Of a DNA stretch of 36,940 bases, positions 1,722 to 10,589 are shown one piece after another. Below the pieces are notes generated by a model, which worked only from the letters and a program-made list of their open reading frames with translations, searched no databases and was not told the DNA's origin. Every line of letters starts with the position of its first letter. The first letter of the stretch is position 1. The position numbers and the translations under genes are program-made. Source of the stretch: Polaromonas sp. (GTDB lineage Bacteria; Pseudomonadota; Gammaproteobacteria; Burkholderiales; Burkholderiaceae_C); NCBI GenBank assembly GCA_030650875.1, contig JAUSDK010000037.1:1-36940 (forward strand), in the 5' to 3' direction.

Positions 1722-2234
1722 ATGCAAGCCATGACCGACTTGCCCCCCATTTCTGCCCTTTCCGCCCTTTCCGACAAGATTTGCAGCCGTGCCAGCGTGT
1801 CGGCGCGGGTGGCGCTGCTGCCTCGTCCGCTGGTGTTTACCAATGGGGTATTTGACGTGCTGCACCGCGGCCATGTCATGTACTTGGCGCAGGCGCGTGC
1901 CCTGGGCGCCAGTCTGCTGGTGGCGCTGAACACCGATGCGTCGGCCCGGCGCTTGGGCAAAGGGCCGGACCGCCCGCTCAATAACGAAGCCGACCGGGCT
2001 TTTGTCATGGCGGCGCTGGCGTCGACCAGCCTGGTGACCTGGTTTGACGACGACACGCCGCTGGAATTGATTGCTGACCTCAAACCCGACATTCTGGTCA
2101 AGGGCGGTGACTACGACATGAGTCGGCTGGCCGAGACGCGCGTGGTCGAGTCCTACGGCGGGCGGGCGCTGGCGCTGCCTTTTGTGGACGGCTATTCGAC
2201 CACGGCGCTGGTCCGGAAAATCCGTCAAAGTTAA
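1722..2234 (+). CDS. hldC: D-glycero-beta-D-manno-heptose 1-phosphate adenylyltransferase
   Basis: 170 residues. It transfers AMP from ATP to heptose 1-phosphate, giving ADP-heptose for the lipopolysaccharide inner core; cytoplasmic. The cytidylyltransferase fold is marked by FTNGVFDVLHRGHVMYL at about 39-55 with the nucleotide-binding HxGH (HRGH, 48-51), and by KGGDYD and YSTTALVRKI towards the end. It matches the C-terminal half of E. coli HldE (RfaE2) and lacks the N-terminal ribokinase-like half; separate kinase and adenylyltransferase genes are usual in Betaproteobacteria. Two ATGs compete (1722 and 1731); I kept the first. It stands alone here: the following bases are a repeat and a gene remnant, not another LPS gene. 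An alternative symbol is rfaE2. Confidence 0.92.
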   Translation: MQAMTDLPPISALSALSDKICSRASVSARVALLPRPLVFTNGVFDVLHRGHVMYLAQARALGASLLVALNTDASARRLGKGPDRPLNNEADRAFVMAALASTSLVTWFDDDTPLELIADLKPDILVKGGDYDMSRLAETRVVESYGGRALALPFVDGYSTTALVRKIRQS

Positions 2235-2295
2235 GAGTCAAATTGGTCTCTAGCGCCCGTTAAATAAGTGGAAGTAGCTATTTAATTTGTAGCAA
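2235..2295. repeat. Short dispersed intergenic repeat, Comamonadaceae type
   Basis: Directly after the hldC stop lies an AT-richer stretch containing TCTAGCGCCCGTTAAATAAG and AAGTAGCTATTTAATTTGTAGC-like sequence. Its reverse complement can be aligned by eye to the stretch at about 36416-36476: both have TGCT...ATAGCT...CGCCCG or GGGCGCTA...TTTTTA/TTTGA in the same order. I associate this kind of element with many intergenic regions of Polaromonas, Acidovorax and relatives, where copies carry imperfect dyads. Function unknown. Its composition differs clearly from the flanking genes. Confidence 0.5.
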
Positions 2296-2333
2296 ATGGC
2301 CGATCCATTGCTCGTACAAGGAGTTGAGCCTGC

Positions 2334-2408
2334 ATGGACCATAACGTCTCCCTGATCACCACGATTGCCGCCGTCGCGCCAACGCACCCGGGGCAGCCTG
2401 GGCCGTAG
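2334..2408 (+). pseudogene. Remnant of the start of a Kef/YbaL-type cation:proton antiporter gene
   Basis: A 24-codon frame opens with ATG at 2334, ten bases after a strong AAGGAG at about 2318-2323. Its first residues, MDHNVSLITTIAAV, closely resemble the conserved N-terminus of YbaL-type monovalent cation:proton antiporters, as I remember them from Burkholderiales. After codon 14 the resemblance stops, and the frame ends at TAG after an unrelated Pro/Gly-rich tail. The simplest reading is that a deletion or rearrangement removed the rest of the antiporter gene, leaving its ribosome-binding site and first codons between hldC and the LacI-type gene. It could instead be a real leader peptide for the downstream gene, or chance. 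The identification rests on recognition of only 14 residues. Confidence 0.45.
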
Positions 2409-2438
2409 ATCACGCGCGGCGCAGGTGCTACCATCGCC

Positions 2439-2452
2439 TGAAACTGGTTTCA
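2439..2452. promoter_or_regulatory. Operator upstream of the LacI-type regulator gene (PtxS-like)
   Basis: TGAAACTGGTTTCA is a 14-bp palindrome broken only at the centre. It differs by one base from the perfect copy at 3614-3627 and from the PtxS operator of Pseudomonas (TGAAACCGGTTTCA). It ends 31 bp before the regulator's ATG, a position that suits autorepression. Confidence 0.75.
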
Positions 2453-2483
2453 TACAGTCCATCCCACGCTTGTCTCACTTGCA

Positions 2484-3557
2484 ATGTCCGCTTCACCTCA
2501 TTCTCACAACACGCCCGCCGCCTTGGCCCCGGCACGTCCCACTATTGCGGATGTCGCGCGCGTCGCGGGCGTCTCCAAGGCCACCGTCTCCCGCTTCCTG
2601 AACCACCGCGACAAGCTGCTCACCAAAGACATCGCCACGCGCGTGGAGGTCGCCATTGCGGCCCTGGCCTACAGCCCCAGCCCGATGGCGCAGGCGCTCA
2701 AGCGCGGGCGCTCGCGCCTGATTGGCCTGGTGGTGGCGGACGTGACGAATCCTTTTTCGGTGGCCGTGCTGCGCGGTGCCGAAAAAGCCTGCCAGGACGC
2801 CGGCTACCTGCTGATGCTGTTCAACCTCGGCAATGACAGCCGGCGCGAAAGCGAAGCCATTGAAGCGCTCACCGCCTACCAGGTGGAAGGCTTCATCCTC
2901 AACACGCTGGGCCGCGACGCCAAGGCCGCCGCCGAAGCCGCGCGGCACGGCAAGCCGGTGGTGCTGGTGGATCGGCGCCACCCCGGCATGCAGGCCGACT
3001 TTGTGTCGCTGGACAACGCCGGCGCGGTGCGCCTGGGTGCCAGCCACCTGGTGGAGGCCGGCTACCGGGAGCTGCTGTTCATCTCGGAGCCGGTCAAAAA
3101 CGTCAGCTCGCGCGAGGAGCGCGAGGCGGCTTTTCGCGGCTTTATCCGCGAGTCGGCCGCCGATGTAGCCGGCCTGCAGGGTCGGACCTTTGAGAACACA
3201 GCGGACGACCCGCAAGCGCTGGACGAGGCCTTGCGTGATTTGCGCCAGCGCGCCGGGCCGCGCCTGCCCGGTGTGCTTTCCAGCAATGCCGTGGTGACCT
3301 TGCGCGTGGTGGCGGCCATGGCGCGCCTGGGCTGGCAGTTCGGCGCCGATGTCGGCCTGGTGGGCTTCGATGACACCGAGTGGTCGCCTTACATCGGGCC
3401 GGGCCTGAGCACCATCGCCCAGCCGACCGACGAGTTGGGGCGCATTGCGGCCGGCTGCCTGATCGAGCGTCTGAAAGGCATGGTGCTGCCGCCGCGCCAG
3501 ATTCTGCTGTCCGGCCGTCTGGTGCCGCGCGGCTCCTCGGTGCACGCCGCCATTTAG
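2484..3557 (+). CDS. LacI-family transcriptional regulator, PtxS-like, of the 2-ketogluconate locus
   Basis: 357 residues. The N-terminal helix-turn-helix is at 20-40 (TIADVARVAGVSKATVSRFLN), then the hinge helix, then a periplasmic-binding-protein-like effector domain from about 75 (LIGLVVADVTNPFSVAVLRG) to the end. LacI proteins bind palindromic operators as dimers and let go when a sugar or sugar acid binds. Matching operators stand before this gene and before the transport operon that follows in the same direction, so it probably represses both. PtxS of Pseudomonas recognises the same palindrome and responds to 2-ketogluconate; neighbourhood and operator together make this a PtxS counterpart, though KdgR-type regulators are related. 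The ATG at 2484 lacks a good ribosome-binding site but gives the normal length of tail before the helix-turn-helix. Confidence 0.88.
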   Translation: MSASPHSHNTPAALAPARPTIADVARVAGVSKATVSRFLNHRDKLLTKDIATRVEVAIAALAYSPSPMAQALKRGRSRLIGLVVADVTNPFSVAVLRGAEKACQDAGYLLMLFNLGNDSRRESEAIEALTAYQVEGFILNTLGRDAKAAAEAARHGKPVVLVDRRHPGMQADFVSLDNAGAVRLGASHLVEAGYRELLFISEPVKNVSSREEREAAFRGFIRESAADVAGLQGRTFENTADDPQALDEALRDLRQRAGPRLPGVLSSNAVVTLRVVAAMARLGWQFGADVGLVGFDDTEWSPYIGPGLSTIAQPTDELGRIAAGCLIERLKGMVLPPRQILLSGRLVPRGSSVHAAI

Positions 3558-3603
3558 CCCGTATTAGGGTTTTCCATAGTTACCGAGCGGTTTAGGCTAC
3601 TTT

Positions 3604-3609
3604 TATAAT
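3604..3609 (+). promoter_or_regulatory. Candidate -10 box of the importer/2-ketogluconate operon promoter
   Basis: A perfect TATAAT lies in the 147-bp gap between the regulator stop and the first permease start. The -35 region (around 3580-3586) is a poor match, TTACCG at 18-bp spacing. The expected start point, near 3616, falls inside the palindrome at 3613-3628, so a bound repressor would block initiation. Confidence 0.6.
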
Positions 3610-3612
3610 TCA

Positions 3613-3628
3613 CTGAAACCGGTTTCAG
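3613..3628. promoter_or_regulatory. PtxS-type operator of the transport/catabolic operon
   Basis: CTGAAACCGGTTTCAG is a perfect 16-bp palindrome. Its core, TGAAACCGGTTTCA, is the sequence known for PtxS of Pseudomonas, and a near copy precedes the regulator gene. It begins 4 bp downstream of TATAAT, the classic position for repression by a LacI-type protein. Confidence 0.82.
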
Positions 3629-3704
3629 ACTTTTACCCAGAGGCGGATGCGGAACCCGGTTGATCCGTTAATTTTTGTGCTCAACCTGGCGATTGCGCCC
3701 GCTC

Positions 3705-4376
3705 ATGAACTACTCATTCCAATTCGGTGATGTCTTTGCCGCCTGGCCGCTGCTGGTCAAGGGCACGCTCAGCACCATCGAGCTCTCGCTGCTGGCCATG
3801 CTGCTCGGCCTGCTGCTGGCGATCGTGTGCGCCTGGGGCAAGACCGCCGGGCCGCGCCCGCTGCGCTGGCTCATCAATGCCTACATCGAGCTGATCCGCA
3901 ACACGCCGTTTCTGGTGCAGCTGTTCTTCTTCTTTTTCGCGTTGCCGGCGCTGGGTCTGCGCTGGTCGGCCTACGCCGCCGCGCTGGTCGCCATGGTGGT
4001 GAACCTGGGCGCCTACGCCACCGAGATCATCCGCGCCGGCATCGAGTCGATTCCCAAAGGCCAGATCGAGGCCGGCCTGGCGCTCAACCTGAAACGCCAT
4101 GAAATCTTCCGCTTCGTGATTTTGAAGCCGGCGCTGCGCACGGTGTACCCGGCCCTCACCAGCCAGTTCATCCTGCTGATGCTCAGCTCGGCCGTGGTGT
4201 CGGCGATTTCGGCCGACGACCTGACCTCGGTGGCGGCCAACCTGCAGTCACAGACCTTCCGCAGTTTCGAGATTTACATCGTCGTGGCCGGCATCTACCT
4301 GCTGCTGGCGCTGTCGTTTTCCGCCTTGTTCCGGGTGATCTACCGCCTGGCCCTCAACTACCCGGCAGCTCGCTGA
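3705..4376 (+). CDS. ABC transporter permease, polar-amino-acid type (first subunit)
   Basis: 223 residues from ATG 3705 (MNYSFQFGDVFAAWPLL). An in-frame TTG at 3675 would add ten residues that do not look like the family. It is an inner-membrane subunit of the HisM/GlnP type with about five hydrophobic segments, starting with TLSTIELSLLAMLLGLLLAI. The coupling (EAA) loop toward the ATPase is visible at EAGLALNLKRHEIFRFVILKP. It should form a heterodimer with the next permease. By sequence alone it would be called an amino-acid permease. Its position, first in an operon ending in three sugar-acid genes and behind a PtxS-type operator, suggests it carries 2-ketogluconate or a related aldonate. 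No strong Shine-Dalgarno sequence is visible. Confidence 0.9.
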   Translation: MNYSFQFGDVFAAWPLLVKGTLSTIELSLLAMLLGLLLAIVCAWGKTAGPRPLRWLINAYIELIRNTPFLVQLFFFFFALPALGLRWSAYAAALVAMVVNLGAYATEIIRAGIESIPKGQIEAGLALNLKRHEIFRFVILKPALRTVYPALTSQFILLMLSSAVVSAISADDLTSVAANLQSQTFRSFEIYIVVAGIYLLLALSFSALFRVIYRLALNYPAAR

Positions 4377-4380
4377 CTAT

Positions 4381-4455
4381 GGCCCCCACACTCGGCACTT
4401 CGTGTCCTCCCTGCCCCCCAAAGGGGTTGATTCGTCTTGGGGCGGCCCGGCGCCG
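4381..4455. repeat. Intergenic repeat inserted between the two permease genes
   Basis: The stretch reads as CACTCGGCACTTCGTGTCC, then CTGCCCCCCAAAGGGG, then CTTGGGGCGGCCCGGCG. It contains the short dyad CCCCAAAGGGG. I recognise near-identical strings from intergenic regions of Polaromonas, Variovorax and other Comamonadaceae, where they recur many times. It is translatable in the frame of the downstream permease, which misleadingly extends that gene to a GTG at 4402. Confidence 0.55.
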
Positions 4456-4461
4456 AATCTG

Positions 4462-5115
4462 ATGCGTACTTTTGGTTTTCCCGAATTTCTGTTCATCCTC
4501 GAGGCGGCCAGGTGGACCGTGGCGCTCTCCATGATCGCCTTCATTGGTGGCGCCATCGGCGGCCTGGTCATCGCGCTGAGCCGCACCTCGCACAACAGTC
4601 TGGCGCGGCTGCTGTCCGGCGCCTTCATCCAGGTCTTCCAGGGCACGCCGTTGCTGCTGCAGCTGTTTCTGGTGTTCTTCGGCGCGCCGGTGCTGGGGCT
4701 GGAAATCAACCCCTGGGTGGCGGCCGGCGCGGCGCTGATTCTCAACAGCAGCGCCTTTTTGGGCGAGATCTGGCGCGGCTGCATCCAGGCGATACCGGGC
4801 GGTCAATGGGAGGCGGCGCAGGCGCTGAGCCTGCCTTATGTGTCGCGCATGCGGGACGTGATCCTGCCGCAGGCCTTCAAAATTGCGCTGGCGCCGACGG
4901 TCGGCTACCTGGTGCAGATCATCAAGGGCACCTCGCTGGCGGCCATCATTGGTTTTTCCGAAATCACCCGCACCGGGCAGATCATCAACAACGCCACCTT
5001 CCAGCCGCTGATCGTGTTCAGCGTGGTCGCCGCGATTTATTTTGCGCTGTGCTGGCCACTGTCTTTTCTGGCCGCGCGCATGGAGCGCCGGCATGCCGCC
5101 GCGCTGGCCCGCTGA
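4462..5115 (+). CDS. ABC transporter permease, polar-amino-acid type (second subunit)
   Basis: 217 residues from ATG 4462 (MRTFGFPEFLFILEAARWTV). The frame stays open back to a GTG at 4402, but those 20 codons lie inside the repeat, so I reject the longer start. It has the typical BPD_transp_1 fold: several hydrophobic helices and the EAA loop EAAQALSLPYVSRMRDVILP, including the classic xLPQA that follows. It pairs with the upstream permease to form the channel of one importer. A 49-bp gap separates it from the binding-protein gene. Substrate inferred from context to be a keto-sugar acid rather than an amino acid. Confidence 0.9.
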   Translation: MRTFGFPEFLFILEAARWTVALSMIAFIGGAIGGLVIALSRTSHNSLARLLSGAFIQVFQGTPLLLQLFLVFFGAPVLGLEINPWVAAGAALILNSSAFLGEIWRGCIQAIPGGQWEAAQALSLPYVSRMRDVILPQAFKIALAPTVGYLVQIIKGTSLAAIIGFSEITRTGQIINNATFQPLIVFSVVAAIYFALCWPLSFLAARMERRHAAALAR

Positions 5116-5164
5116 GCCGCCCCCTTTCACCCTGCCTTTTTTCACCACCAACCGGAGACTTCAC

Positions 5165-5971
5165 ATGATCAAGCATCTGCAACGCCGCGTATTCACGGGC
5201 ACCGCCCTGGCCCTGGGTCTGGCCGCCACCTTGTCGGCATGGGCGCCCGCCGCCAGTGCCCAGTCGGTGGCGGACATCAAGAAAAAAGGCGAGCTGACCA
5301 TCGGCATGCTGGTGGACTTTCCGCCCTACGGCACCACGAACAGCAGCAACCAGCCGGACGGCTACGACGCCGATGTGGCGCGCCTGATGGCCAAGGACCT
5401 CGGCGTCAAGCTCAACCTGGTGCCCGTGACCGGCCCCAACCGCATCCCCTTCCTGCTGACCAACAAGGTCGATCTGCTGGTGGCCTCGCTGGCCGTCACG
5501 CCCGAGCGCGCCAAGCAGGTCCAGTTCTCCAAGCCCTATGCCGCCGCCAGCATCGTGGTCTACGGCGACAAGAAGGCCGGCATCAAATCCGCCGCCGACC
5601 TGAAGGGAAAACGCGTGGGTGTTGCCCGTGCCAGCACGCAAGACGTGGCGCTGACGGCCGTGGCGCCTGAAGGCACCGAGATCCGCCGCTTCGACGACGA
5701 CGCATCGGCCATGCAGGCCCTGATGTCGGGCCAGGTGGATGCGATTGGCTGCTCGACCACGGTGGCCGCGCAGATTGAAAAGCGCGCGCCGGCCAACAGC
5801 TTTGAAAACAAGTTTTTGCTGCGCCAGCAGGTCATGGCCGTGGCCATGCGCCCCGGCCAGGCCGAGTTGCTCAAAACCGTGGACGACTTCGTGGCCCGCA
5901 ACACGGCCAACGGCGAGCTCAACAAGCTCTACCGCAAGTGGCTCGAAACCGACCTGCCAAAGCTGCAGTAA
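5165..5971 (+). CDS. Periplasmic solute-binding protein, polar-amino-acid family, probable sugar-acid ligand
   Basis: 268 residues from ATG 5165, preceded by GGAGA. A signal peptide (RR near the start, hydrophobic core, cleavage about ASAQ-S at 33-34) sends it to the periplasm. The fold is SBP_bac_3: IKKKGELTIGMLVDFPPYG at the mature N-terminus, DADVARLMAKDLG, and ASLAVTPERAKQVQFSKPY. In HisJ of this family, Arg77 holds the ligand carboxylate and Asp161 the alpha-amine. Aligned by eye without gaps, Arg115 here matches Arg77, but Asp161 falls on Ser197 (VDAIGCS against IDAAFQD). This fits a carboxylate ligand without an amine, such as 2-ketogluconate. The ligand is inference; the family is certain. 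Confidence 0.88.
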   Translation: MIKHLQRRVFTGTALALGLAATLSAWAPAASAQSVADIKKKGELTIGMLVDFPPYGTTNSSNQPDGYDADVARLMAKDLGVKLNLVPVTGPNRIPFLLTNKVDLLVASLAVTPERAKQVQFSKPYAAASIVVYGDKKAGIKSAADLKGKRVGVARASTQDVALTAVAPEGTEIRRFDDDASAMQALMSGQVDAIGCSTTVAAQIEKRAPANSFENKFLLRQQVMAVAMRPGQAELLKTVDDFVARNTANGELNKLYRKWLETDLPKLQ

Positions 5972-6019
5972 GCCCCGAGACCCATACCCGATACCCGACC
6001 GACCGACCACGGTGACTTC

Positions 6020-6811
6020 ATGACAGACGCAATGCTTTCCCCCAACCCGGCAGCAACCGGGGCCGAGCCCATCATCCGCATCGACGCGGTGGACAAATGG
6101 TATGGCAAGTTCCAGGTGCTGACCGACATCAACCTGAACGTCGCGGCCGGGGAACGCATTGTGGTCTGCGGGCCGTCGGGCTCGGGCAAATCGACGCTGA
6201 TCCGCTGCATTAACCGGCTGGAGACCGTGCAGAAAGGCCGCATCGTGGTCGACGGCATAGACCTGACGGCCGGCGGCAAAAACGTCGATTCGGTGCGCCA
6301 GGAAGTCGGCATGGTGTTCCAGCAGTTCAACCTGTTTCCGCACCTGACGATTTTGCAGAACTGCATGCTGGCGCCCATGCGCTCGCGCGGCCTGAGCCAG
6401 GAAGAAGCCGAAACCATCGCGATGAAATACCTGACGCGGGTGCGCATTCCCGAGCAGGCCAAGAAATACCCGAGCCAGCTGTCGGGCGGCCAGCAGCAGC
6501 GCGTGGCCATTGCCCGGGCCCTGTGCATGACGCCCAAGATCATGCTTTTCGACGAGCCCACCTCGGCGCTCGACCCCGAAATGGTCAAGGAAGTGCTGGA
6601 CACCATGATCGGCCTGGCCGACGACGGCATGACCATGCTGTGCGTGACCCACGAAATGGGCTTTGCCCGCAGCGTGGCCGACCGCGTGATCTTCATGGCC
6701 GAAGGCAAGATCATCGAGCAGGCGCCGCCGCAGCAATTCTTCAGCAACCCGCAGCATGAAACCACCCGTAATTTTCTGGGCCAGATTCTGAATTCGCAAC
6801 ATGCCCACTGA
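6020..6811 (+). CDS. ABC transporter ATP-binding protein, polar-amino-acid type
   Basis: 263 residues. All ABC motifs are intact: Walker A GPSGSGKST (51-59), Q-loop VFQQFNLF (99-106), signature LSGGQ (154-158), Walker B IMLFDEP (174-180) and the switch His211 (VTHEMGF). It is most like GlnQ/HisP ATPases and drives the importer formed with the two upstream permeases and the binding protein. The last 11 bases overlap the start of the next gene in a different frame, which suggests translational coupling between import and catabolism. The Shine-Dalgarno sequence is weak (GGTGAC). The first 15 residues precede the nucleotide-binding domain and are variable in the family. Confidence 0.93.
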   Translation: MTDAMLSPNPAATGAEPIIRIDAVDKWYGKFQVLTDINLNVAAGERIVVCGPSGSGKSTLIRCINRLETVQKGRIVVDGIDLTAGGKNVDSVRQEVGMVFQQFNLFPHLTILQNCMLAPMRSRGLSQEEAETIAMKYLTRVRIPEQAKKYPSQLSGGQQQRVAIARALCMTPKIMLFDEPTSALDPEMVKEVLDTMIGLADDGMTMLCVTHEMGFARSVADRVIFMAEGKIIEQAPPQQFFSNPQHETTRNFLGQILNSQHAH

Positions 6812-7625
6812 CGTTTCAAGCGCTGCAGCCGCCGCTGCGCCGCCCATCCTGATTTCCCTGACGGCGTTTGGCGCCGCCGAGGTGCGCCGCCACGGCCAGT
6901 GCTGGTTTACCCAGCTCAGCCATGCAGCCGGCGCCGATGGTGTGGAAGTGCGCAGCGAATTGCTGGTGGATGCGGCCAGCGAACTCCCGGCCATTGCCAG
7001 GGCTGTGCGCGACGCCGGCCTGTGCGTGGTGTATTCGAGCGCCGAGTACCTCTGGGCGGCCGACGGCACGCTGGATGTCGCCGCACTGGAAAGCGCGCTG
7101 GCCGCCGCCAAGGCGCTGGGTGCCCCCCGGCTGAAAATGGCGATAGGCGGCTTTGGCCCGGCTTCCCGCCACACGCTCGCGGCATTACAGGGCCAGCTGG
7201 ACGCTGCCAAGGTCGAGCTCGTGATCGAGAACGACCAGACGCCTGCCGCCGGCACCTTGCCCGCCTTGCAAGACTTCTTCAGCGTCGCCAATGGCCAGGG
7301 GATTTTTCTCGGCATGACCTTTGACATGGGCAACTGGCACTGGACCGGCGAATGCCCGCTGCAGGCCGCCCACGCGCTGGCGCCGCAGGTGCGTTATGTG
7401 CACTGCAAGGGTGTGCAGCGCCAGCCGCAGCGCTGGGTCGCGGTGCCGCTGGCCGAGTCCAGCGCGCCCTGGCGCGCCGTGTTGCGCGCCTTGCCGGCCG
7501 ATGTGCCCTGGGCGATTGAATACCCGCTGATCGGCGACGACCTGCTCGCGGTGACGCGCCGGGAAATCGACCAGTTGCGCAGCGTTGCCGCCCGCATGGC
7601 TGGCCGCATTCGCATTCCTTCCTGA
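6801..7625 (+). CDS. kguE: KguE-like sugar phosphate isomerase/epimerase (TIM barrel)
   Basis: 274 residues. It has the xylose-isomerase/AP-endonuclease-2 TIM-barrel fold. Likely metal ligands are the Glu of LVIENDQT, the Asp of TFDMGNWHW, the His of VRYVHCKG and the Glu of WAIEYPL, in the usual order. In Pseudomonas kguE is the first gene of the 2-ketogluconate operon kguEKTD; the exact reaction of its product is not firmly established as far as I know. Here too it is followed by a PfkB kinase and a 2-hydroxyacid dehydrogenase, which is the main reason for the symbol. Its start overlaps the ATPase gene by 11 bases. The alternative is an unspecific sugar isomerase of the same superfamily. Confidence 0.72.
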   Translation: MPTDVSSAAAAAAPPILISLTAFGAAEVRRHGQCWFTQLSHAAGADGVEVRSELLVDAASELPAIARAVRDAGLCVVYSSAEYLWAADGTLDVAALESALAAAKALGAPRLKMAIGGFGPASRHTLAALQGQLDAAKVELVIENDQTPAAGTLPALQDFFSVANGQGIFLGMTFDMGNWHWTGECPLQAAHALAPQVRYVHCKGVQRQPQRWVAVPLAESSAPWRAVLRALPADVPWAIEYPLIGDDLLAVTRREIDQLRSVAARMAGRIRIPS

Positions 7626-7644
7626 ATCACAACAAGAGACTTTT

Positions 7645-8592
7645 ATGACCCGCGCACTGGACGTGATTACTTTTGGCGAAGCCATGATGCTGCTGGTCGC
7701 TGACCGGCCCGGCCCGCTGGAACAAGCCGAAACCTTTTTCAAGCGCACCGCCGGCGCTGAAACCAATGTCGCCATCGGCCTGGCGCGGCTAGGCCTGAAG
7801 GTGGGCTGGGGCAGCCGCCTGGGCACCGATTCCATGGGCCGCTATTTGCTGGCCGCCATGGAAAAAGAAGGTATCGACTGTTCGCACGTCGTTTCCGATC
7901 CGTCACAAAAAACCGGCTTCCAGTTCAAGGGCAAGGTGCTTGATGGCAGCGACCCGCAGGTCGAATACCACCGCCAGGGCTCGGCCGCCAGCCACATGGG
8001 CGAGGCTGACATTGACCAGCCCTGGCTGCTGTCGGCCCGGCACCTGCACGCCACCGGCGTGTTTGCCGCCATTTCGGCCAGCACCCTGCCCGCTGCCCGC
8101 ACCACCATGGACCTGATGCGCGCCGCCGGCCGCAGCGTGTCGTTCGACCCCAACCTGCGCCCCACGCTGTGGGCCAGCCCCGAGCTGATGCGCCAAGCCA
8201 TCAACGACCTGGCCACACGCGCCGACTGGGTGTTGCCCGGCCTGGAGGAAGGCCGGTTTTTGACCGGCGAGGACAGCGCCGAAGGCATTGCCCGGTTTTA
8301 CCGCGAGCGCGGTGCCCAACTGGTCGTCGTCAAGCTGGGCGCGCAGGGGGCTTACTTCGACAGCGCCACGGCCGGCTGCGGCCATGTCCCCGGCTTTGCC
8401 GTGGCCCAGGTGATTGACACCGTGGGCGCCGGCGACGGCTTTGCGGTCGGCGTGATCAGCGCCCTGCTCGATGGCCAGGGCGTTCCCGAGGCGGTCAGGC
8501 GCGGCGCCTGGATTGGCGCGCGCGCGGTGCAGGTGCTGGGCGACAGCGAAGGACTGCCGACCCGCGCCGAGCTTGACGCGGCAGGGCTGTAA
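7645..8592 (+). CDS. kguK: PfkB-family kinase, 2-ketogluconokinase (or 2-keto-3-deoxygluconokinase)
   Basis: 315 residues from ATG 7645, preceded by AAGAGA; upstream in-frame codons belong to the previous gene's coding region. The ribokinase fold shows GAETNVAIGLARLG near the N-terminus (sugar site and lid) and DTVGAGDGFAVG near the C-terminus with the catalytic Asp and anion hole. The family phosphorylates 2-keto-3-deoxygluconate (KdgK) or 2-ketogluconate (KguK) at C6 using ATP. Sequence alone does not separate the two. Context favours KguK: a kguE-like gene before it, a reductase gene after it and PtxS-type operators. The product, 2-keto-6-phosphogluconate, would be the substrate of the next enzyme. 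It sits 19 bp after kguE and 3 bp before the dehydrogenase. Confidence 0.8.
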   Translation: MTRALDVITFGEAMMLLVADRPGPLEQAETFFKRTAGAETNVAIGLARLGLKVGWGSRLGTDSMGRYLLAAMEKEGIDCSHVVSDPSQKTGFQFKGKVLDGSDPQVEYHRQGSAASHMGEADIDQPWLLSARHLHATGVFAAISASTLPAARTTMDLMRAAGRSVSFDPNLRPTLWASPELMRQAINDLATRADWVLPGLEEGRFLTGEDSAEGIARFYRERGAQLVVVKLGAQGAYFDSATAGCGHVPGFAVAQVIDTVGAGDGFAVGVISALLDGQGVPEAVRRGAWIGARAVQVLGDSEGLPTRAELDAAGL

Positions 8593-8595
8593 GCG

Positions 8596-9597
8596 ATGAG
8601 CACCCCAACGCGCAAAAAAGTATTGGTCTTTCGCGAACTGCCGCCCGACCAGCTGGCCCGCCTGCAAGCGCAGCATGACGTCACCGTTGCCAACCCGCGC
8701 CTGCCCGGGCAGTTGCCCGCCTTCGAGGCCGCTCTGGCCACGGCCGAGGGCATGATCGGCTCCAGCTACCCCATCGGCGAAGCGCTGCTGGCCCGGGCAC
8801 CACAGCTCCAGGTGATCTCCAGCGTGTCGGTGGGTGTCGACAACTACGCCCTGGGCGCACTGGCGGCGCGCGGCATTGTGCTGTGCCACACGCCCGGCGT
8901 GCTGACCGAAACCACCGCCGACACCATCTTTTCCCTCATCATGGCCACCAGCCGCCGGCTGGTCGAGTTGGCCAGCCATGTGCGCGAAGGCCGCTGGAGC
9001 CGCAACATCGGCGAAGACCTGTTTGGCTGGGATGTGCATGGCAAGACCCTGGGCATTCTGGGCTTTGGCCGCATCGGCCAGGCCGTGGCGCGGCGCGCGG
9101 CGCTGGGCTTTGGCATGCCGGTGCTCTACCACTGCCGCCGCCCGGTAGACCTGGCCACCACTTCACCCGAACTGGCCGGCAAAGCCACCCGCACAACGCT
9201 CGATGAACTGCTCCAGCGCGCCGACATCGTCGCGGCCGTGCTGCCCCTGTCCGCTGAAACGCGCGGCCTGATGGGCGAGCGCGAATTCGGCCTGATGAAG
9301 CCGGGCGCCATTTTCATCAACGGCGCGCGCGGCGCCATCGTGCACGAGGGCGCCCTGCTCCACGCGCTGGACCACGGCACCCTGCGCGCCGCCGGCCTCG
9401 ACGTATTCGCCACCGAACCGCTGCCGCTGGATTCGCCGTTGCGCACCCACCCCAAGGTCACCGCCCTGCCGCACATCGGCTCAGCGACGTTTGAAACGCG
9501 CCACGCCATGGCCGTGCTAGCCACCAGCAACTTGCTGCAGGCCCTGGCGGGCGAGCGGCCGGATGCCGTGTTCAACCTGGAAACGGCAGCGATCTAG
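8596..9597 (+). CDS. kguD: D-2-hydroxyacid dehydrogenase, probable 2-ketogluconate-6-phosphate reductase
   Basis: 333 residues. It is an NAD(P)-dependent D-isomer-specific 2-hydroxyacid dehydrogenase: Rossmann motif GILGFGRIGQAVARRA in the middle, and the catalytic triad Arg (NGARGAIV), Glu (FATEPLP) and His (LPHIGSAT). KguD of Pseudomonas reduces 2-keto-6-phosphogluconate to 6-phosphogluconate, which enters the Entner-Doudoroff pathway; GhrB/TkrA relatives reduce 2-ketogluconate or glyoxylate. As last gene of this operon, 3 bp after the kinase, the KguD role fits best. An imperfect hairpin follows the stop. The specific substrate is inferred. Confidence 0.82.
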   Translation: MSTPTRKKVLVFRELPPDQLARLQAQHDVTVANPRLPGQLPAFEAALATAEGMIGSSYPIGEALLARAPQLQVISSVSVGVDNYALGALAARGIVLCHTPGVLTETTADTIFSLIMATSRRLVELASHVREGRWSRNIGEDLFGWDVHGKTLGILGFGRIGQAVARRAALGFGMPVLYHCRRPVDLATTSPELAGKATRTTLDELLQRADIVAAVLPLSAETRGLMGEREFGLMKPGAIFINGARGAIVHEGALLHALDHGTLRAAGLDVFATEPLPLDSPLRTHPKVTALPHIGSATFETRHAMAVLATSNLLQALAGERPDAVFNLETAAI

Positions 9598-9640
9598 CGC
9601 CAGCGGCCACAAGCAGCCACTGCGCGCTGTCAGGTTTCTT
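9596..9640 (+). terminator. Weak candidate terminator after the sugar-acid operon
   Basis: AGCGC at 9596-9600 can pair with GCGCT at 9624-9628, with further pairing of GGC and GCC inside, and a broken T-rich tract (GGTTTCTT) follows. The stem is imperfect and the gap to the converging gene is only 32 bp, so this is tentative. Confidence 0.25.
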
Positions 9641-10589
9641 CAGGCTTGGCCGGCCGGGGGATCTTCTTGAACTTGATCAGCCGGTTGGTTTCGATCTTGT
9701 CTTTTTTGACCTGCCGCTCGGCGTCCAGCTTTTGCCCTGCGGCCAGCCACTGGGCATACTCTTCGGGGGTTTCCAGCGTGATGCGGCCGGTGGTCGCGGC
9801 ACGAAATTCGTAAATCACGATTTCAGCGGCTTTTTGCAGGTTGATGCGGCCCTTGGTCAACACCGCGCCGCGCTTGCGACCAATGTTTTCGAGCAACTCT
9901 TCATCGGTGATGCCGGGCGGCACGTCGACCTTGTAGCGCGCCTGCAGCAAGCCGGGGTAATTTTTAATCAGGTAATCGAGCAGCTCCAGCGCGACCTCCT
10001 CTTCTTCGAAGGCGTTGCGGCCAATGGCGCCGCTGGCAGCCAGGTTGTAACCGCTTTTGGCGACGATGATGCGCGGCCAGAGCATGCCGGGCGTGTCCCA
10101 CAAATAAAATCCGTCGGCCAGCACGATGCGCTGCTCCAGCTTGGTCACGCCGGCCTCGTCGCCGGTCTTGGTCACGCGCTTGCCGGTCAGGGTGTTGATC
10201 AGCGTCGATTTGCCGACGTTGGGGATGCCGCAAATCAGCACGCGCATCGGCTTGACCATGCTGCCGCGCGTGGGCGCCAGCGCATGGCAGGCCTCGATCA
10301 GGGCTTTGGCCGGTGTGGTCATGCTGGCGTCCAGCCCGATGGCCCGGGTGCCGGGCAGACTGTTGTAGTGGGCCAGCCAGAGCGCGGTGCGCGCCGGGTC
10401 GGCCAGGTCCTGCTTGTTCAGCACCTTGAGCGCAGGCTTGGCGCCGGTCAATTCGGCCAGCATCGGGTTGGCGCTGGAGCCGGGCAGGCGCGCATCGAGC
10501 AGCTCGATCACGACATCAATTTCCTTGATGCGCTCCTGAATTGCTTTTTTGGTCAAATGCATGTGACCCGGAAACCATTGAATAGCCAT
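9630..10589 (-). CDS. rbgA: Ribosome biogenesis GTPase RbgA/YlqF
   Basis: 319 residues from the ATG at 10589 (MAIQWFPGHMHLTKKAI), the conserved start of this family; the frame is open further upstream, but those residues are not family-like. The G motifs are circularly permuted as in YlqF/YjeQ-type GTPases: G4 NKQD at 58-61 precedes G1 GIPNVGKST (121-129) and G3 DTPG (165-168). In Bacillus RbgA acts in late assembly of the large ribosomal subunit; the proteobacterial counterpart is presumed similar. A basic C-terminal tail (RLIKFKKIPRPAKP) may touch rRNA. It converges with the sugar-acid operon and diverges from a small membrane protein gene. Confidence 0.9.
   Translation of the reverse strand: MAIQWFPGHMHLTKKAIQERIKEIDVVIELLDARLPGSSANPMLAELTGAKPALKVLNKQDLADPARTALWLAHYNSLPGTRAIGLDASMTTPAKALIEACHALAPTRGSMVKPMRVLICGIPNVGKSTLINTLTGKRVTKTGDEAGVTKLEQRIVLADGFYLWDTPGMLWPRIIVAKSGYNLAASGAIGRNAFEEEEVALELLDYLIKNYPGLLQARYKVDVPPGITDEELLENIGRKRGAVLTKGRINLQKAAEIVIYEFRAATTGRITLETPEEYAQWLAAGQKLDAERQVKKDKIETNRLIKFKKIPRPAKPEET

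Follow-up and report, generated by a model that had tools for sequence, protein, structure and literature searches.

What does an ATP-binding cassette (ABC) importer of the polar-amino-acid (PAAT) type carry when its genes lie inside an operon for 2-ketogluconate catabolism? The question is raised by positions 2439–9597 of a 36,940-nucleotide contig of Polaromonas sp. (JAUSDK010000037.1; the whole contig is referred to here as the window), where a LacI-family regulatory gene is followed by the four genes of such an importer and then by kguE-, kguK-, and kguD-like genes. An earlier note on this DNA proposed that the importer stands in the place of KguT, the major facilitator superfamily (MFS) permease that accompanies the same catabolic genes in Pseudomonas. 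Gene linkage, common operators, co-occurrence across genomes, survival of the importer-kguK pair after loss of kguE, and a second genomic context beside a dehydrogenase gene all agree with that proposal, and it is likely that the importer takes up 2-ketogluconate, or a close 2-keto-aldonate, in KguT's stead and is repressed by an orthologue of PtxS.

Linkage of the Importer to the kgu Genes

The order permease-permease-binding protein-ATPase-kguEKD, which the earlier note had suggested seeking across relatives, recurs widely. Among named kguE loci, taken as the best 80 of 163 relatives listed, all four importer genes of the window type (type A) are located 5' of kguE in 62, the first permease gene being cut by a contig end in two of these (L063 and L067). 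A related importer in which the binding-protein gene comes first (type B) is present in seven loci, from Cupriavidus, Herbaspirillum, and strain 2FH; four loci are cut by contig ends, and one, from Chimaeribacter, has an MFS kguT gene. The linkage supports the replacement of kguT by an ABC importer, an arrangement that is not peculiar to the host genome. The ABC-importer kgu operon is the usual arrangement in the sampled loci of Comamonadaceae and Alcaligenaceae, families to which we presume these loci to belong from their genus names. Chance association was considered and is ruled out by the conservation of the order in dozens of genomes together with the operators.

A second sample, consisting of 200 genomes of the family, is not independent of the first, since several of the named loci lie on contigs of these genomes. 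A match to KguE at E ≤ 0.001 was present in 27 of them, and 26 of the matches, including that in the host, were strong. Twenty of the 25 other genomes with a strong KguE have all four same-type importer genes directly upstream; the remaining five comprise one locus with a related importer (L041), two that are cut by contig ends but retain the ATPase gene (L035 and L051), and two with no importer (L045 and L058). When orthologues of the binding protein were defined by an E value below 1e-110, 31 genomes had the binding protein, 26 had KguE, and 23 had both, with the binding protein alone in eight and KguE alone in three (Fisher p = 2e-20, a value that is overstated because the species are related). 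Three further genomes contain relatives of the binding protein at 43–51% identity only. A class-wide search with a KguE alignment matched 4 of 369 genomes (the host and two weak matches among them), too few for a count of importer versus kguT.

The eight genomes that have the binding protein and lack KguE are informative. In seven of them kguK directly follows the ATPase gene, and five of these seven loci also contain kguD; in the eighth, the contig ends inside the binding-protein gene. Because kguK still follows the ATPase gene in these loci, the importer and the kinase appear to form a stable core from which KguE is dispensable, and the survival of the pair suggests that the importer is tied to the substrate of the kinase.

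PtxS-type Operators

In Pseudomonas, PtxS binds the palindrome TGAAACCGGTTTCA and is released by 2-ketogluconate (PMC3402500; here and below, articles are cited from excerpts unless the main text is named). The operator 5' of the importer genes in the window is identical to this palindrome and that 5' of the LacI gene differs from it at one position (Table 1), as expected from the earlier description of a LacI regulator with PtxS-type operators. The window contains two matches to the palindrome with up to two mismatches, compared with 0.07 expected, and none of 100 shuffled sequences reached two; in the part of the host genome that was searched, the same two sites are the sole matches with at most one mismatch. 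Many relatives have a similar site 5' of the LacI gene. Upstream of the importer, the palindrome is present, exactly or with one mismatch, in 59 of the 60 type-A named loci that have sufficient upstream sequence: a scripted scan found 52 exact sites and five with one mismatch, L078 has an exact site identified by reading, and in L126 an exact site lies about 790 bp upstream. No palindrome within two mismatches was found 5' of the importer in L076. The seven type-B loci are more varied, two having an exact site, one a site with one mismatch, and four sites with three or more.

A different palindrome, TTGGATCGATCCAA or TTAGATCGATCTAA, is found 5' of the first permease gene in L211, L212, L214, and L215, from Azospirillum and Neorhizobium, and may be the site at which the neighboring LacI protein acts. 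The main text of a study of LacI-family regulons (PMC4052901) does not contain the terms "ptx", "kgu", or "ketogluconate".

Genes of the Locus

The eight genes and two operators can be read directly from the sequence at the positions reported earlier (Table 1), including the 11-bp overlap of the ATPase gene with kguE (6801–6811). Pfam and NCBIfam scans of the encoded proteins give consistent gene classes and agree with the earlier view that the PAAT set is complete, consisting of HEQRo-type permease domains, an SBP_bac_3 binding protein, and an ABC ATPase; the permeases score 99.8 and 92.3 bits against the NCBIfam model HEQRo_perm_3TM, for which the cut-off is 42.2.

Table 1. Operators and genes of the Polaromonas kgu locus, with positions in the window
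Feature	Position	Strand	Evidence and remarks
PtxS-type operator 1	2439–2452	.	5' of LacI gene; TGAAACTGGTTTCA; one mismatch to PtxS palindrome of PMC3402500
LacI-family repressor, likely PtxS orthologue	2484–3557	+	PF00356, PF13377
PtxS-type operator 2	3614–3627	.	5' of importer-kgu genes; TGAAACCGGTTTCA
ABC permease 1, PAAT type	3705–4376	+	PF00528; TIGR01726 above cut-off; ATG start within a longer TTG frame
ABC permease 2, PAAT type	4462–5115	+	PF00528; TIGR01726 above cut-off; ATG start; alternative GTG start at 4402
Periplasmic solute-binding protein, PAAT type	5165–5971	+	SBP_bac_3
ABC ATPase, PAAT type	6020–6811	+	PF00005; top NCBIfam match GlnQ, 324.3 bits, under cut-off of 379
KguE-like TIM-barrel protein	6801–7625	+	PF01261; 11-bp overlap with ATPase gene
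KguK-like PfkB kinase (2-ketogluconate kinase)	7645–8592	+	PF00294; name by similarity
KguD-like 2-hydroxyacid dehydrogenase (2-keto-6-phosphogluconate reductase)	8596–9597	+	PF02826, PF00389; name by similarity

The assignment of the last three genes as kguE-, kguK-, and kguD-like is upheld by comparison with Klebsiella proteins. KguK is 56% identical over 306 residues to the annotated 2-ketogluconate kinase of Klebsiella aerogenes, KguD is 50% identical over 322 residues to the product of the gene at the kguD position in the Klebsiella pneumoniae kgu operon, and KguE shares 36.7% identity with a Klebsiella protein annotated as "Epimerase KguE"; the closest named relatives of KguE among the matches listed are from Polaromonas and Rhodoferax (best 79–84%), which suggests that the host lies close to these two genera. 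The LacI protein is 41% identical over 336 residues to the LacI regulator that adjoins kguE-kguK in K. pneumoniae, the K. aerogenes counterpart of which is annotated as PtxS. The K. pneumoniae protein (L142) was used as the reference because, in K. aerogenes NCTC10006 (LR134124.1; L141, 6862–7879), ptxS is annotated as two overlapping pieces. In the NCBIfam scan, LacI, KguK, and KguD fall below every cut-off, the top match of KguD being GhrB, and KguE has no match; since no cut-off is reached, the names LacI/PtxS, KguE, KguK, and KguD are based on similarity and context. The host genome, a 3.23-Mb draft that is 87.55% complete, contains two LacI-family genes, the second encoding a protein 27% identical to that in the window.

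The gap between the permease genes (4377–4461) is filled by a roughly 75-bp dispersed repeat with a predicted hairpin, compared with a gap of only a few bases in many relatives. Matches of 76–90% to this repeat are present in five other loci (L052, L062, L063, L205, and L236), L063 having a complete copy and a partial one at the equivalent place. No RNA family reached the Rfam gathering threshold in 2000–10000, and a scan of 2200–9800 for sigma-70-like promoters gave no sites (0.8 expected) and is uninformative.

The Binding Pocket

In LAO, an amino-acid-binding protein, Arg77 binds the carboxylate of the ligand while Ser72 and Asp161 hold its α-amine; in NocT these two residues are replaced by Gly and Ser, and the protein is unable to bind arginine (PMC4192606 and PMC5740067). 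The window binding protein has Ala72, Arg77, and Ser161 in LAO numbering, neither of the LAO-like α-amine residues, Ser72 (or Thr) and Asp161, being present. Of 67 type-A proteins, 66 have the same three residues and the other is incomplete at 72 and 77 with Ser161 present; all nine type-B proteins have Ala72, Arg77, and Pro161. Paralogues from the host and related genomes served as a control, 35 rows being reduced to 34 by removal of the kgu-type protein of a congener (L157). Asp161 is present in 23 of the 34, or in 20 of 31 if three duplicates, each with Asp161, that stem from the overlap of loci L152 and L171 are left out. Every fourth type-A row was included in the tree used for residue comparison. 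The pocket supports the proposed substrate in a nonspecific way, in that its residues would disfavor a free α-amino acid held as in LAO and do not point to 2-ketogluconate in particular.

A Second Genomic Context

Binding proteins at least 60% identical to that of the window are also encoded on plasmids, and 15 of 16 such records were examined. Neither KguE nor KguK is encoded in any of the 15 loci within the stretch examined. In 12 of them (nine from Azospirillum, two from Neorhizobium, and one from Variovorax), a gene for a 2-hydroxyacid dehydrogenase comes after the four importer genes, and the Azospirillum and Neorhizobium loci have a LacI gene as well. The Variovorax locus encodes an IlvD/EDD-family dehydratase and a dehydrogenase that is 67% identical to KguD of the window. 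Two Microvirga loci contain the importer, the annotated one beside GMC and short-chain oxidoreductase genes, and a further Variovorax record encodes the binding protein, beside an RraA-family gene, but no other importer genes. A common substrate that is open either to phosphorylation or to reduction of a 2-keto group would fit a 2-keto-aldonate.

Relatives of the Importer

In a tree of the four importer proteins, the type-A, Azospirillum, and Microvirga importers group with a relative from locus L243 at 100/100. The Neorhizobium importers join this group weakly (65.1/71), as do those of L244, a neighbor of a 3-dehydroquinate dehydratase gene, and L246, a neighbor of a shikimate dehydrogenase gene (81.7/83). 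The L243 importer is encoded beside an FAA-hydrolase/short-chain dehydrogenase (SDR) pair, of which the hydrolase reaches 431.4 bits, below the cut-off of 500, with the model for a hydrolase of a sugar acid, 2,4-didehydro-3-deoxy-L-rhamnonate. These neighboring genes suggest a branch of importers for hydroxy acids, although each context is represented by one locus (L243, L244, or L246), and biosynthetic pathways also use dehydroquinate dehydratase and shikimate dehydrogenase.

The permeases and ATPases of types A and B share a mean identity of 48%, and each type is 48–49% identical to a third family that is linked to amino-acid genes; the branching is weak, at 84.6/85 in one tree and 12.2/58 in another. 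Two type-B loci from Cupriavidus (L132 and L133) have the importer 5' of kguE-K-D. Cupriavidus JMP134 has no 2-ketogluconate kinase genes and does not use 2-ketogluconate, whereas other Cupriavidus strains do (PMC2842291). Herbaspirillum loci L136 (6055–7758) and L139 (6102–7782) have tandem binding-protein genes followed by one permease/ATPase set.

Discussion

In the mechanism that we propose, the binding protein would capture periplasmic 2-ketogluconate, or a close 2-keto-aldonate, with its conserved Arg gripping the carboxylate, and the two permeases and the ATPase would drive import. KguK would then phosphorylate 2-ketogluconate, and KguD would reduce 2-keto-6-phosphogluconate to 6-phosphogluconate, which would enter the Entner-Doudoroff route; the host genome encodes one KDPG/KHG-type aldolase. 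The importer and kgu genes, presumably expressed as a single transcript, and the LacI/PtxS gene itself would be repressed through the two palindromes, and binding of 2-ketogluconate to the repressor would lift this.

The locus has a LacI regulator, a 14-bp palindrome, and KguE, KguK, and KguD in common with the Pseudomonas kgu operon, which was compared from its description rather than its sequence (PMC11678583 and PMC3402500); it differs in that Pseudomonas has ptxS beside kguE, kguK, kguT, and kguD, whereas a four-gene ABC importer precedes kguE in the window. The enterobacterial operons of Klebsiella and Chimaeribacter similarly have homologues of ptxS-kguE-kguK-kguD, but with an MFS kguT between kguK and kguD. 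There is no MFS transporter in the window operon, and the best match to KguT in the host genome is a partial one of 26% identity near a contig end. With PAAT importers of the glutamine/histidine type the system shares its permease, binding-protein, and ATPase families and its binding-protein fold, but its α-amine residues are replaced and it is linked to sugar-acid genes. Opines, the ligands of other members of the binding-protein family, retain an amino-acid part. The opine-binding proteins NocT and OccJ belong to this family, NocT keeping the Arg with Gly/Ser in place of Ser72/Asp161 (PMC4192606), but the window has no opine genes.

Several observations weigh against 2-ketogluconate as the substrate. 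Among solved structures, those nearest in sequence to the window binding protein are of amino-acid-binding proteins or of reconstructed ancestors of these. A fold search gave the same picture, although the rows that it lists form a single fold family, many of them in complex with amino acids, and are uninformative on the ligand of the window protein. Asp161 is missing from 11 of the 34 paralogue rows. A sister "GKN" family of binding proteins, the host copy of which is 37% identical to the window protein, has Gly at both amine positions and yet is encoded near PLP (pyridoxal phosphate)-dependent enzymes, M20/M24 peptidases, or proline dehydrogenase; because this family, found near amino-acid or amide genes, also lacks both residues, their loss is probably older than the link to kgu. 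(The host GKN importer, at 3014–6030 of L196 on contig C286, is near genes for an M24 peptidase and a PLP-dependent enzyme.) In the plasmid context, the Azospirillum dehydrogenase is 36% identical to KguD, so that its reaction is uncertain, and in Neorhizobium L212 a tryptophan 2,3-dioxygenase gene lies on the opposite strand two genes past the dehydrogenase that ends the importer operon. The co-occurrence counts were obtained with at most 12 candidates scored per genome, and some orthologues were perhaps missed. Finally, four of the 80 named loci lack an importer (three from Azohydromonas and one from Variovorax), one has the binding protein only (L127, a Castellaniella metagenome-assembled genome), and one has no ATPase (L134, Variovorax). 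The last two partial importers, both beside kguE-kguK, possibly reflect gene loss, reliance on a shared ATPase, or an assembly fault. The closest solved structures, the setting of the GKN family, the tryptophan 2,3-dioxygenase gene of L212, and the fact that many NCBIfam relatives are amino-acid importers would be accounted for if the system were an ordinary importer of an amino acid, or of an amino sugar acid such as glucosaminate, which some PAAT importers take, merely carried along with the kgu genes. The conservation of linkage and operators in dozens of genomes and the loss of Ser72 and Asp161 make this very improbable, as does the setting of the other annotated plasmid loci, which are flanked by dehydrogenases, oxidoreductases, a sugar-acid-type dehydratase, and LacI regulators.

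The importer might alternatively be redundant, the true 2-ketogluconate carrier being an unlinked permease. This may hold in Azohydromonas, where three loci (L095, L120, and L124) contain kguE-K-D and PtxS-type operators with neither ABC importer nor kguT nearby, and MFS proteins about 29% identical to KguT are encoded elsewhere in the two Azohydromonas-type genomes tested. Such proteins also occur, however, in two importer-bearing genomes; linkage to kguE is seen in two related importer lineages, and the host genome, 87.55% complete, has only the partial 26% match to KguT. We therefore consider a redundant importer extremely improbable. It is unlikely, but less readily dismissed, that the main substrate is another acid entering the same enzymatic route (2-keto-L-gulonate, gluconate, or 2,5-diketogluconate, for example), with 2-ketogluconate being a secondary substrate or made inside the cell. 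KguE is a putative isomerase of unknown function (PMC11678583), and the neighbors of the importer relatives in L243, L244, and L246 would be in keeping with other acids; against this, the importer stays with kguK after kguE is lost, and in Pseudomonas the repressor that recognizes such operators has 2-ketogluconate as its effector (PMC3402500).

Uptake of 2-ketogluconate by the window importer may be part of a wider pattern. We suggest tentatively, and with somewhat more doubt than confidence, that a branch of the PAAT family carries polyhydroxy acids (2-ketogluconate, and in relatives other sugar acids or quinate/shikimate-like acids), that the link to kgu genes arose independently in two of its lineages, and that the Azospirillum/Neorhizobium importer feeds a reductive route through the 2-hydroxyacid dehydrogenase; the window importer would be the best-supported member of this putative branch. 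The earlier note expected a new substrate class for the transporter family. A new substrate is supported, but the family was already flexible, as shown by the ectoine models in NCBIfam and by the opines. No ABC importer for 2-ketogluconate was found in the titles and opening lines of abstracts of the matches listed among openly licensed articles, and the phrase "ketogluconate ABC transporter" is absent from the openly licensed articles searched.

The arrangement is not an oddity of one genome but a widespread form of the known kgu operon. Pseudomonas oxidizes glucose to 2-ketogluconate (PMC11678583). No gluconate-2-dehydrogenase subunit 3 was found in the search of the host genome (87.55% complete), which is in line with an outside source of 2-ketogluconate, and an importer with a binding protein would suit the scavenging of this compound when dilute. 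Public records label the proteins of this branch "polar amino acid transport system" or "amino acid ABC transporter". If our interpretation is correct, these labels are misleading in many Burkholderiales and in some Alphaproteobacteria that associate with plants, and sugar-acid uptake would be missing from metabolic models that rely on them.

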